24,449 nt of DNA, taken from positions 1 through 24,449 of the IMG/VR virus record IMGVR_UViG_3300006802_000544. One strand, given 5' to 3'. This DNA comes from a virus. Both the position numbers and the translations under genes were made by a program. Shown here in pieces: positions 11,710 to 24,252 of this stretch (its first letter is position 1; each line of letters begins with the position of its first letter). The notes beneath the pieces were generated by a model. The model had not been told where the DNA came from. It saw only the letters and a program-made list of their open reading frames with translations, and did no database searches.

Positions 11710-12042
11710 ATGCCTAACAAATACGCAAAAGACACGAAGAAATTCACATTTTATGCAAAAGATGAATTGCATGCAAAATTTAAAATAAGAATGCAATTTC
11801 ACAGCCTTACACAATCAGAATTTCTTCGTGCTTGCGTTGAAGCGGTTGTGTCTGAAGATCCTGTGATGGAAATGTTTATTGATCATTTTAAAGAAGATAA
11901 CAATAAACAATCAAAAGTTCAAAGACAAAAAATTAAAAAAGAAAAAGAAAAATCGGAAGAAATATTAAAAGACTTTGGATTAGGCGATGGGGACCTAGAT
12001 GACATCTTTGATATGATAGCAAAAGAACACCCAGAAATTTAA
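11710..12042 (+). CDS. ribbon-helix-helix-like protein
   Basis: The first 50 residues (KKFTFYAKDELHAKFKIRM then TQSEFLRACVEAVVSEDP) look like a strand followed by two helices, the shape of a ribbon-helix-helix DNA-binding domain. They are followed by a highly charged helix (about 58-85, many Lys and Glu) and an acidic end (GDGDLDDIFDMI). Function is unknown; a transcriptional regulator is plausible. GGAGG (11699-11703) lies within the dut stop region, 6 nt before the ATG. It is the last gene before a possible late-type promoter. Confidence 0.55.
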   Translation: MPNKYAKDTKKFTFYAKDELHAKFKIRMQFHSLTQSEFLRACVEAVVSEDPVMEMFIDHFKEDNNKQSKVQRQKIKKEKEKSEEILKDFGLGDGDLDDIFDMIAKEHPEI

Positions 12043-16606: not shown

Positions 16607-18175
16607 ATGAAACATTATAACCAAGGTCAAACTCTTAACCAAAAAATCTTGGAAGGAGTTGACATTCTTGCGGACAATGTTGCGACGACTCTCGGTCCTC
16701 GAGGTCGCAATGTTGCCCTATACAACAAAGAACAAGACACACCTGTCATCACAAAAGATGGTGTGACAATCGCTAAGTTCATCACTTTAGATGACCCATT
16801 CCAAAATCTTGGAGCACAAGTTATAAAGCAAGCAGCAGAGGAAACTGTGAACTCTGCTGGAGATGGAACCACAACTGCAACAGTCTTATCTCGTGCAATC
16901 TTGAAAGAAGCACAAAGATATTGCACAGCAGGAGTTTCACCGGTTGAACTCAAAAGAGGCATGGACAAAGCAGTCACTGCAATAACAACTCGTCTAGATG
17001 AAATGGCAAGACCGATTCAGACTGTTGAAGACATTCGTCACATTGCAACTATCTCTGCAAACAACGACAAGTCTATTGGGCAGCTTATTGCAACCGCTAT
17101 CGACAAGGCTGGTAAAGATGGTTCTGTGCTCGTTGAAGAAGCTAGAAGCATGTCTACCTCATTAGATCTTATAGAAGGCTTCAGGTTTGATTCTGGCTAT
17201 GCTAGTAACACATTTATCACAGATGAAAGAAACGCAACTGTAAATTATGACAATCCACTTATTCTTGTTACAGATGAGAAAGTAGAACACGTTGATCAAA
17301 TAATGAAAGTGCTTGAGATTGCCGCTAGAGATAATCGACCTCTTGTTGTTATTTCAAATGACATCGAAGGACAGGCACTCGCTGCAATCATTGCAAATGC
17401 AGTTCGAGGAACAATGAAGATCTGTGCAATCAAAGCTCCACGTTATGGAGAAGAAAGAAGAAACATTCTGAAAGACCTTTGCATTAGCACTGGGGCAGCT
17501 TTCATTTCTAGGGAGAACTCAAAGACCCTTCGAGACATTCAACTTAAAGACTTTGGTCAATGCAATAGAATAAGTGTTACAAAAACTTGGACAACTATTG
17601 TAGGTGGAAAAGGAAACGAACCCCAGATAGATAGTAGAATAGATATGATTAAGTCTCAGATCCAACAAACAGAAAACCTTGCGGAATGTGAAAGGCTTCA
17701 AGAAAGAATCACGCGTCTTGCTTCTGGTGTTGCTGTTATTCGTGTTGGAGCACAAACTGAAGTTGAAATGATTGAGAAGAGACATCGGATTGATGATGCG
17801 CTTGAAGCTGTTCGGTCTGCTCAAGAACAAGGCATTATTCCCGGCGGTGGTGTTGCACTCATAAGAGCAACAAAAGACTTGTTCATCGAAACAGATAACG
17901 AAGAGCAAAATCTTGGTGCTCAAGTTATTCTTCGTGCTTGCGAAGTTCCTCTAAGACAAATGGCAATTAATGCTGGAGAATCACCTGACATTATTGTTTC
18001 TCAAGTCAAAGAACAAGAAGGAGATGTTGGTTATGATTTCTTAAATAGATGCATGGTTGGCACTTACAAAGTTGGAATCATTGATCCTTGTAAAGTAACA
18101 AAGTGTGCCCTAAAGAACGCGACATCCGCAGCTGGAACTTTATTAACAACATCTCACGCTATTGTTGATTGTTAG
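16607..18175 (+). CDS. groL: GroEL-type chaperonin (phage-encoded Hsp60)
   Basis: A 522-aa chaperonin with the nucleotide-site blocks TTLGPRGRNV (27-36), TKDGVTIAK (49-57, Asp51), AGDGTTTATVL (84-94, Asp86), and IDDALEAVRSAQEQG leading to IIPGGGVALIR with the catalytic-type Asp (E. coli Asp398 equivalent). The apical domain is present (EGFRFDSGY ASNTFI). Differences from E. coli include Thr in place of Tyr203 of the substrate-binding groove and a C-terminus ending SHAIVDC with no GGM repeats. No groES-like gene is in the window, so it must use host GroES, a distant phage co-chaperonin, or work as a single ring, as proposed for some jumbo phages. It probably folds phage proteins. It has its own promoter and stands apart from the virion block. 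Confidence 0.95.
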   Translation: MKHYNQGQTLNQKILEGVDILADNVATTLGPRGRNVALYNKEQDTPVITKDGVTIAKFITLDDPFQNLGAQVIKQAAEETVNSAGDGTTTATVLSRAILKEAQRYCTAGVSPVELKRGMDKAVTAITTRLDEMARPIQTVEDIRHIATISANNDKSIGQLIATAIDKAGKDGSVLVEEARSMSTSLDLIEGFRFDSGYASNTFITDERNATVNYDNPLILVTDEKVEHVDQIMKVLEIAARDNRPLVVISNDIEGQALAAIIANAVRGTMKICAIKAPRYGEERRNILKDLCISTGAAFISRENSKTLRDIQLKDFGQCNRISVTKTWTTIVGGKGNEPQIDSRIDMIKSQIQQTENLAECERLQERITRLASGVAVIRVGAQTEVEMIEKRHRIDDALEAVRSAQEQGIIPGGGVALIRATKDLFIETDNEEQNLGAQVILRACEVPLRQMAINAGESPDIIVSQVKEQEGDVGYDFLNRCMVGTYKVGIIDPCKVTKCALKNATSAAGTLLTTSHAIVDC

Positions 18176-21842: not shown

Positions 21843-22060
21843 CCTGCTACCCTACTACCCCACTACCCCCCTACTACCCTCCCTATTATTCAATAGATAG
21901 CATAATATTTGCACTTGTCGACAAGTGCATAGAGGTAAACTGCAACTTCAGTCTTCCACAGTCAGAACACGACCAATATTTTAAATACACAATGGCATTG
22001 GTCGACTTTTGGGAAAAAGAAACAAGGAGCATCTTATATTATGAGCTTCAACAAAGGTGA
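21839..22060 (+). CDS. 73-aa hypothetical protein with Pro/Tyr-rich start
   Basis: ATGA overlap with the previous gene. The N-terminus (PTTPLPPYYPPYYS) is Pro/Tyr-rich because the DNA there is a C-rich strand of CTACCC-type units. The remaining residues form a helical domain (IIFALVDKCIEVNC, YFKYTMALVDFWEKETRS). No family recognised. It overlaps the next gene by 20 nt. Confidence 0.45.
   Translation: MTCYPTTPLPPYYPPYYSIDSIIFALVDKCIEVNCNFSLPQSEHDQYFKYTMALVDFWEKETRSILYYELQQR
21850..21883 (-). other. G-quadruplex-capable motif on the minus strand
   Basis: Five C-runs on the + strand (21850-21852, 21858-21861, 21866-21871, 21877-21879, 21881-21883) are separated by 5, 4, 5 and 1 nt. The minus strand therefore reads five G-tracts of at least three with short loops, meeting the standard G4 pattern. 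It is striking in an AT-rich window. It codes for the Pro/Tyr-rich start of 21839-22060. Confidence 0.75.
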
Positions 22061-22355
22061 TCTAGTGTTGGCTTCAAATGGAAGCCAATCTTCTACATGC
22101 ATTATTTTATCCGAAAAATACACCACAACTGCTTATATTTCTTACAGTTTTTATTATAGCTATTGTTTAGAGACTGGTATTTACGGATTGATTTATGAAA
22201 ATGAAATCATAGGCATAGTTGCAGAAAATTTTGCACCGGATTTTCCTTTCGAAAGCCAATTGTTTGACATAGATTATTCTTTTTACGAACACCTCTATGA
22301 GAATTGGTCTTACTTCCCATATTCTACACCAGAAAGTGAAGATGATGAAGAGTGA
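22041..22355 (+). CDS. 104-aa SH3-like small protein with acidic end
   Basis: The start MSFNKGDLVLASNGSQ matches the GDLV opening of the tandem proteins at 23753-24250. A Tyr/Ser-rich centre (SYSFYYSYCLETGIYGLIYE) and an acidic tail (SEDDEE) follow. GGAG (22026-22029) lies 11 nt upstream of the ATG. The TGA stop is immediately followed by the repeat array, so this is the last gene before the non-coding region. Confidence 0.5.
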   Translation: MSFNKGDLVLASNGSQSSTCIILSEKYTTTAYISYSFYYSYCLETGIYGLIYENEIIGIVAENFAPDFPFESQLFDIDYSFYEHLYENWSYFPYSTPESEDDEE

Positions 22356-22540
22356 AAAACTTTACATAACTATGGAACTTCTAAAAAACTTTACATAACT
22401 CATTTAGTTTATGAAAAGGAAGTTCGTCGATCTTCAAGCGTACTTCGGCCTTTGCACAGTTTTTTATCAATCTCTTTTAAAAAAACTTTACATAACTATG
22501 CTTATTAAATTAAAAAATTTTACATAACTCATTTAGTTTG

Positions 22541-22571
22541 TAAAAATAAAATCACGGATTAAGCCCATGAT
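22541..22571 (-). terminator. minus-strand hairpin followed by a T-rich run
   Basis: On the minus strand ATCATGG (22571-22565) pairs with CCGTGAT (22557-22551) across a 7-nt loop, one G-U pair, followed by TTTATTTTTA (22550-22541). It looks like an intrinsic terminator, but it lies right at the expected start of the minus-strand promoter transcript, so it might instead be an operator or cruciform. Confidence 0.5.
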
Positions 22572-22576
22572 AAGGT

Positions 22577-22605
22577 AGTATAACTCATTTTGGCCTGTTT
22601 GTCAA
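22577..22605 (-). promoter_or_regulatory. near-consensus sigma-70 promoter on the minus strand
   Basis: Reading the minus strand, TTGACA (22605-22600), a 17-nt spacer, and TATACT (22582-22577) form an almost perfect promoter. It is the only minus-strand promoter noticed and no minus-strand gene lies downstream. Its -10 region overlaps a degenerate array repeat. Confidence 0.7.
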
Positions 22606-22646
22606 CAAAATTTATTTTACATAACTCATAAAAGAAATGGAAAAAA

Positions 22647-22674
22647 CTTTACATAACTATGCTCTTATGTAAAG
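22647..22674. repeat. 10-bp inverted repeat within the array
   Basis: CTTTACATAA (22647-22656) and its exact inverse TTATGTAAAG (22665-22674) flank an 8-nt loop, so this copy of the array repeat is paired with an inverted half-copy. A perfect palindrome CATGCGCATG lies nearby at 22703-22712. Confidence 0.85.
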
Positions 22675-22782
22675 GAAATGGAAAAAACTTTACATAACTA
22701 TTCATGCGCATGCAATCCTTTTATTTATCAGAGACAAAAAACTTTACATAACTCATTCAAGAAGAAAAGTTTCACAAATAAT

Positions 22783-22811
22783 TTGACAACTGAACTGGAG
22801 CGTGATAGTAG
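22783..22811 (+). promoter_or_regulatory. probable promoter at the right end of the array
   Basis: TTGACA (22783-22788), 17-nt spacer, TAGTAG (22806-22811), a weaker -10 than the others in the family; a TATAAC at 22816 may contribute. The leader reads AACCCAAAAGTC before AGGAGGACAT and ATG 22842. Confidence 0.6.
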
Positions 22812-22841
22812 TAAGTATAACCCAAAAGTCAGGAGGACATA

Positions 22842-23084
22842 ATGACAGCAGGATTATTATACAGTTGTAAGTACAGAACAAATCAATGGAACGACGTGAA
22901 CAACTCTTGGGATCACGGTTGGGACTTGCTTCTATTCATAGGAATAGAAACGATACACAGGAACGATGGACTTGACATACACAACTATCGCTTCCATGAC
23001 ATAATTAAAAATGAAAGTGTTTTGATGGACAAACACTTAACAAGACACTGTAAAGAGATAAAGCCAGAGGATTATCATGAATAG
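22842..23084 (+). CDS. 80-aa hypothetical protein
   Basis: A small soluble protein beginning MTAGLLYSCKYRTNQWNDV, with a His/Asp-rich middle (HRNDGLDIHNYRFHD) and a basic C-terminal helix (KHLTRHCKEIKP). I do not recognise it. A strong AGGAGGACATA precedes the ATG, and it is the first gene after the repeat array, which makes it a candidate for the factor acting on the array; that is speculation. It overlaps the next gene by 8 nt. Confidence 0.5.
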   Translation: MTAGLLYSCKYRTNQWNDVNNSWDHGWDLLLFIGIETIHRNDGLDIHNYRFHDIIKNESVLMDKHLTRHCKEIKPEDYHE

Positions 23085-23334
23085 AATAAAAAAAATAAGA
23101 CAAAATTTAGCGAAGGTTCTTGGAAGAGAGCCAACAATTCACGAAGAGATAGATTATCTAATTTTAGAAGTATGTCGCGATCATGCATATGAATTGAGAT
23201 TAGCATATGACTTAAACCCAAACGAGAACTATAAACAAGCCTACGAATTTGCAGTTAGGTGTTGCAATATGATAGTAGAAAGAAACCCAGAGATTTTCGG
23301 AGAAGATGATGAAGGCTCTGAGGACGACTACTAA
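23077..23334 (+). CDS. 85-aa helical acidic-tailed hypothetical protein
   Basis: Helices include IKKIRQNLAKVLGREPTIHE (4-23) and IDYLILEVCRDHAYELRL, with an acidic end (GEDDEGSEDDY). The phrase LGREPT occurs in sigma-70 region 3, but the rest does not align to a sigma factor, so this may be chance. GAGG at 23067-23070 precedes ATG 23077 inside the previous gene. No family assigned. Confidence 0.5.
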   Translation: MNRIKKIRQNLAKVLGREPTIHEEIDYLILEVCRDHAYELRLAYDLNPNENYKQAYEFAVRCCNMIVERNPEIFGEDDEGSEDDY

Positions 23335-23354
23335 TAAAAGGACAAAAAACGTCC

Positions 23355-23382
23355 TTGCAATTTCCAATTATCATGATAAATT
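23355..23382 (+). promoter_or_regulatory. second-class promoter (TTGCAA-N16-TGATAAATT)
   Basis: TTGCAA (23355-23360), 16-nt spacer, TAAATT (23377-23382) preceded by TGA (extended -10). A 6-bp hairpin AAGGAC/GTCCTT (23338-23356) precedes it. The same layout recurs at 24253-24280. Confidence 0.5.
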
Positions 23383-24084: not shown

Positions 24085-24250
24085 TCTTGTCGAGTTCATC
24101 TGGACTTATAGTAGCACAAAATTCATAGGCATTGTTGTGTCTTCTCACAAGTATGCTGGAAAAACTTGGTATAGAGTTTACTGGAATGATAAAGTTATCT
24201 CCGAGATAGCGGAGATTGAACTAAGAAAAATAAAAACGGACATTTTTTGA
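24062..24250 (+). CDS. 62-aa SH3-like NGDLV protein, paralog 3
   Basis: Starts MMKFQNGDLVEFIWTYSSTK and has IGIVVSSHKYAGKTWYRVYW, the same GDLV, GIVV and W-strand pattern. Two adjacent ATGs (24062, 24065) are possible starts; no strong ribosome site is seen, so translation may be coupled to the upstream gene. Unknown function. Confidence 0.5.
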   Translation: MMKFQNGDLVEFIWTYSSTKFIGIVVSSHKYAGKTWYRVYWNDKVISEIAEIELRKIKTDIF

Positions 24251-24252
24251 CC

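Follow-up and report, generated by a model that had tools for sequence, protein, structure and literature searches.

Direct repeats of an asymmetric site upstream of an early-type promoter, a candidate regulatory region in an uncultured phage lineage

The DNA analysed here, referred to as the window, comprises the 24,449 nucleotides of IMG/VR virus record IMGVR_UViG_3300006802_000544. Near its 3′ end lie 486 non-coding bases (22356-22841) without a credible gene, flanked on either side by small genes of the same direction, in agreement with the original prediction of a gene-free stretch of about 490 nt. A 54-amino-acid open reading frame at 22678 was rejected as a gene, its frame passing through the repeats described below. 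The genes flanking the array do not match any known family, and no Rep or initiator gene is found beside the repeats. The features of the region are as follows, G002 and G004 being two related genomes.

22041-22355, plus strand: last gene before the array, encoding a small KGDLV-type protein with homologues in G002 and G004
22354-22371, plus strand: repeat copy 1, GAAAAACTTTACATAACT, its first bases lying in the upstream gene's stop codon, an overlap also found in G002
22383-22400, plus strand: repeat copy 2, AAAAAACTTTACATAACT
22480-22497, plus strand: repeat copy 3, AAAAAACTTTACATAACT
22512-22529, plus strand: repeat copy 4, AAAAAATTTTACATAACT
22550-22592, plus strand: central block, ..ATAAGGTAGTATAACTCATTTTG, common to G002 and G004 by alignment
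22609-22626, plus strand: repeat copy 5, degenerate, AATTTATTTTACATAACT
22641-22658, plus strand: repeat copy 6, AAAAAACTTTACATAACT
22665-22673, minus strand: inverted half copy, reading TTATGTAAA on the plus strand
22682-22699, plus strand: repeat copy 7, AAAAAACTTTACATAACT
22703-22712: 10-bp palindrome, CATGCGCATG
22736-22753, plus strand: repeat copy 8, AAAAAACTTTACATAACT, at a position which holds a GGWCA-N5-TGWCC operator in G002 and G004
22783-22811, plus strand: predicted early promoter P2, TTGACA-N17-TAGTAG, with TG preceding the -10
22842-23084, plus strand: first gene after P2 (80 aa), with homologues only in the closest relatives of the window
23077-23334, plus strand: second gene after P2 (85 aa), its product modelled as a helical bundle
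23340-23360, plus strand: putative early-regulon operator GGACAAAAAACGTCC (15-bp dyad 23340-23354), abutting a -35 TTGCAA
24238-24258, plus strand: putative early-regulon operator GGACATTTTTTGACC (15-bp dyad 24238-24252), abutting a -35 TTGCTT

The array holds an asymmetric site of approximately 20 bp in eight direct copies, all on the plus strand (22354-22753). The core TTTACATAACT is unchanged in all eight, and seven copies differ by at most one base from AAAAAACTTTACATAACT, while the copy at 22609 is four bases removed. The array had been predicted as eight near-identical repeats plus a degenerate one; it is real, but holds seven near-identical copies and one degenerate copy. A candidate ninth copy at 22762 carries six mismatches and is not credible, and no further close copy occurs outside the array in the 24.4 kb record. 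Base composition predicts 0.016 occurrences of TTTACATAACT in the window, against eight observed, and the commonest 11-mer in 1,000 dinucleotide shuffles of the array stretch reached one to three copies, against eight in the real sequence. A chance origin of the array is excluded. The copies are spaced 29, 97, 32, 97, 32, 41 and 54 bases apart, and a duplicated block is present (22382-22417 and 22511-22546; 92% identity). The predicted inverted half copy and palindrome are likewise present, neither being kept as such in relatives. The 29, 32, 41 and 54 spacings, which had been read as near whole helical turns, were confirmed as values, but the phasing is weak (short spacings pooled over relatives, data non-independent; R = 0.36, p ~0.03 at 10.5 bp). 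A TTGACA lies within the G002 counterpart of the central block, which may represent a second, weak promoter within the array.

The window is a fragment, and its close IMG/VR relatives are contigs of 184-192 kb with essentially all genes on one strand, two of which (G001 and G004) carry short terminal repeats at their ends, suggesting that they are complete genomes. G002 contains matches to a gp23-type major head protein, gp20-type portal, tail sheath, UvsX, DnaB-like helicase, primase and gp32. The lineage, with genomes of ~185-190 kb, looks like that of a T4-superfamily myovirus, though its polymerase is DnaE; as the window itself is without T4-type markers, this assignment is made by synteny with relatives such as G002. 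The lineage is known here from metagenomes only and represents an uncultured phage. A search of the phage collection returned no close isolate, and neither a counterpart of the array nor a close relative of the amidase was found among the isolated phages. Elsewhere in the window, positions 958-2507 harbor a gene for an MvaI/BcnI-family restriction endonuclease (Pfam match) and, behind it, what looks by eye like a gene for a DNA methyltransferase; the two may form a restriction-modification pair carried by the phage. A phage-encoded GroEL, whose identity to records of the phage collection is ~44% at most, is found at 16607-18175, and G002 contains a weakly Cpn10-like gene.

A search for the repeat core among relatives, as had been proposed, identified the same site at the same gene junction, often letter for letter. 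The 17-mer is present at this junction (protease, GTLIRD protein, small genes, array) in G001, G002, G003 and G004, whose DnaE proteins share 87% (G002 and G004) and ~58% (G001 and G003) identity with that of the window. Variants of the core are found at the same junction in L140 (AAATACTTTACATAACT) and in L149 and L148 (GAACTTTACATAATTAA), while L151 carries TTTACATAACT. Syntenic arrays are thus found in the window, G001-G004, L140, L149 and L151, with a diverged form in a further clade. The genes downstream of the array differ from clade to clade; the array and its promoter stay, the -10 of the P2 counterpart being TACAAT in G002, G004 and L015 (TAGTAG in the window). The 67 copies collected give the consensus cAAAAAACTTTACATAACTAT, and the bases upstream of position -8 are hardly conserved, indicating that the recognized element is ~20 bp long and does not amount to half a sigma-70 promoter. 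An array of sigma-70 promoters was rejected, no -35 hexamer being conserved at a fixed distance from the core in these copies.

Several further sequence elements were observed in and around these arrays. The arrays of L136, L140 and L141 (near L136:18530) contain an inner block, CCCATTAGTTCGAGAC-GATCTCCAACTTG, which G001, G003 and L140 share almost unchanged in diverging surroundings. In L237/L238 (G029), an extra conserved half, TTTTrAGTAAg, is located ~20 bp upstream of the site. A single copy of AAAACTTTACATAACTAAATAATTACTCGTAA, which has the core in common and resembles a promoter element, is located 53-55 nt upstream of a gene in another phage group (L008, L011, L013, L016, L020-L026 and others). 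Single-copy 17-mers in ~20 marine contigs, with a gene starting 53-55 nt further on, occur in a different context and were taken as coincidence.

A second set of copies on the same strand (group B, the array at the junction being A) is located 13-20 kb downstream in G001, G002 and G004. In G029, which belongs to the L149 clade and carries a variant site of its own, three copies lie at the junction, one 15 kb and three 19 kb downstream; one B copy in L237/L238 has an 11-bp inverted repeat on its two sides (GGGACAGGGAC...GTCCCTGTCCC). Each 184-192 kb genome carries seven to ten close copies, in two to four groups. No copy with two or fewer mismatches occurs on the opposite strand, and all are in the early block defined below, except for one two-mismatch stray in G002. 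Copy orientation always follows transcription, which is weak evidence in genomes transcribed entirely one way. Furthermore, all nine repeat groups of G001-G004, one of them a single copy, sit 52-125 bp upstream of a sigma-70 promoter with TTGACA and an extended -10, a placement matched at only 5-18% of non-coding positions. For the two downstream groups of G029, the promoter lies 88 and 134 bp further on. The repeats are found at gene starts but not throughout the genome, the two together being the distribution that the original prediction had associated with a promoter or operator family.

The block between the two sets is marked by a second element, a 15-bp dyad, GGWCA-N5-TGWCC, which was found in G001, G002, G004, G037 and the window and is almost limited to the early-gene block: all 25 dyads of G001 fall within 152.7-169.7 kb, and 13 of the 14 in G002 within 91.5-113 kb. 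The promoters of this block are of host type and its genes are small accessory ones, from which we infer that it is expressed early. The A and B arrays lie roughly at its two borders, although the three B groups of G001 lie within its last 4 kb and not strictly beyond its end. In G001, 21 dyads are located 15 (8), 24-25 (6) or 35 bp (7) upstream of a recognizable promoter -35, a 10-bp periodicity (Rayleigh p ~1e-9), and the dyad looks like a DNA operator contacted on one helical face, the apparent regulon operator of these T4-superfamily phages. The dyad is at 35 bp in all six dyad-bearing promoters nearest a repeat group, and within G001 in four of four such promoters as opposed to 3/17 of the others, both associations having been noticed post hoc. 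P2 has no dyad, and by comparison with G002 and G004 repeat copy 8 occupies its place.

The dyad-promoter units resemble the promoter early stem loops (PeSLs), cassettes of early promoters located where T4-type genomes are shuffled (as cited in PMC4503421). Many of the dyads are, however, of the form GGACA/TGACC or GGTCA/TGTCC, in which an RNA stem would be broken and the DNA dyad is kept; these mismatches, together with the phasing at 15, 25 and 35 bp from the -35, point to a protein operator. The TTTACATAACT repeats are furthermore an element separate from the dyad-promoter units. In a higher-GC relative, G052 (L227-L236, mainly 45-55 kb), the dyad is absent and some twenty copies of GTTACATTAC(A) are found, many of which make up the -10 part of a TTGACA promoter within a small-gene block.

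The array is not present in all relatives, its distribution on the amidase tree requiring at least three changes. It is absent from L134 and L135, which are sister to the clade of the window (support 88/88, not strong), and from L143, at the junction where its close relative L149 has the array, with the dyad and promoter intact. These three contigs are fragments, and no array was found elsewhere in them. G037 (~185 kb) keeps the dyads and contains neither the repeats nor an equivalent iteron family.

Identical, oriented sites are thus conserved in synteny at the edges of one regulon, with a promoter 40-140 bp downstream. The original prediction offered a replication origin, a partition site or a multi-operator switch, of which the partition site found no support and the switch is best supported, in that the copies are located at two to five places per relative genome upstream of early sigma-70 promoters. 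We suggest, with a probability of roughly one half, that the array comprises binding sites for one protein which controls the early regulon at its borders. A single sequence-specific protein, probably phage-encoded, would occupy the identical asymmetric sites (cAAAAAACTTTACATAACTAT) on duplex DNA, and the array would form a cis-regulatory nucleoprotein region before the first operon of the early regulon. At the opposite end of the 13-20 kb block, the smaller matching group would serve the same role for the last operons. The bound protein could modulate initiation at the downstream early promoter, stop read-through from the upstream genes, or both. The promoter linkage of nine out of nine groups and the independent definition of the early block by the dyad argue for this reading, while up to eight sites over 400 bp would be unusual for simple operators.

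Phyletic profiling for the binding protein yielded no DNA-binding candidate. The two sources proposed originally found no support. The protein encoded at 11710-12042 is weakly ribbon-helix-helix-like, with weak fold matches only, and is conserved family-wide, being equally present whether or not a relative carries the array; the strand with which it is predicted to contact DNA varies, while the site stays constant. In the 22842-23334 region, a by-eye likeness of the 23077-23334 product to sigma region 3 was not borne out, the model being a generic helical fold. The repeats were also considered as promoters for a T7-like single-subunit RNA polymerase encoded by the phage; a search for such an enzyme with PF00940 gave no match in six genomes, nor in the control set. 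The T4 late-promoter sequence TATAAATA, tried as a marker of the late region, was rare on the coding strand and not useful. The exact core turned up in only four papers of the open-access literature, to which the search was confined, and no title or abstract among them pointed to a similar array.

Among described features, the iteron cluster of T4 oriE comes closest; it is a group of direct repeats which relatives conserve in syntenic regions and which appears dependent on an early-mode promoter (PMC3016281). The array may accordingly be read as an oriE-like origin, in which the repeats would serve as iterons for a phage initiator or accessory protein and leading-strand synthesis would be primed by an early transcript begun at P2 or within the array. 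We regard this as the main alternative, though tentative and, on balance, doubtful. It shares with oriE co-oriented, syntenic direct repeats in non-coding DNA beside a putative early promoter, in a phage whose relative G002 looks T4-superfamily, and the main cluster is the AT-richest stretch of the window and among the AT-richest of G002 and G004. The AT-richness is, however, unexceptional in G001 and G003, and only one exact DnaA box occurs in the five arrays. The T4 repeats are evenly spaced 12-nt units, while those described here are ~20 bp and uneven, and the array was therefore not filed as oriE; in T4 itself the role of the iterons is undefined and their link to origin activity unproven (PMC3016281). 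The second groups 13-20 kb away, with one to three copies at second sites, also differ from oriE. The absence of the array from L134, L135 and L143, and of the array or equivalent iterons from G037, makes it unlikely to be the sole replication origin, although T4 has several origins, such that the loss of one could be tolerable. The suggested GC-skew analysis was uninformative because every gene is on one strand; the cumulative skew is nearly monotone. Iteron origins of plasmids and satellites (RepA_N-type, PLE; PMC7145576) similarly comprise multiple direct repeats in AT-rich DNA outside genes, but here no Rep gene is adjacent, the spacing is irregular and the array is missing in relatives.

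It is improbable that the sites function as stoperators, where a phage protein on asymmetric sites would block elongating RNA polymerase and insulate the early block on both sides. The repressor sites of mycobacteriophage L5 are likewise asymmetric and located at promoters and in intergenic DNA, with an orientation which correlates with transcription and the reversal of which abolishes function (PMC9283540), and the first copy abuts a stop codon in the window and in G002. The L5 sites are, however, 13 bp long, bound by a temperate repressor and dispersed (more than 20) along the genome, as opposed to two to five clustered loci in a large phage, and single-strand gene usage renders orientation uninformative here. 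Furthermore, no repressor homologue was found, and profiling gave no candidate for a monomeric repressor with a helix-turn-helix and a stoperator domain.

There is an equally small chance that the paired arrays act as boundary elements, where one phage protein would bind both and, by bridging or silencing, insulate a 13-20 kb early-gene domain. To our knowledge, no such domain-level control has been described in phages. An RNA-level signal, such as a boxA-like antitermination or processing element in transcripts across the array, is very unlikely. The single orientation of the repeats and CUUUACAUAA, which we take to resemble boxA slightly, would be consistent with it; the repeats have, however, no hairpin partner that recurs consistently, RNA structure is not in excess (window array z = -0.03; clusters mixed), and most copies are upstream of their accompanying promoter. 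No Rfam family or tRNA match was found for the array. The least probable explanation is that these are recombination repeats, or the product of passive expansion at either edge of a variable gene island, for while the repeats roughly bracket small variable genes and gains and losses do occur, identical sites across lineages with 58%-identical polymerases and the tight coupling to promoters indicate selection on a binding site.

These phages offer a combination of features, as the exactly conserved site, the natural array-less relatives and the second, phased operator together mark out one early regulon. Whether the array is an origin or a switch can be tested by comparing relatives with and without it.
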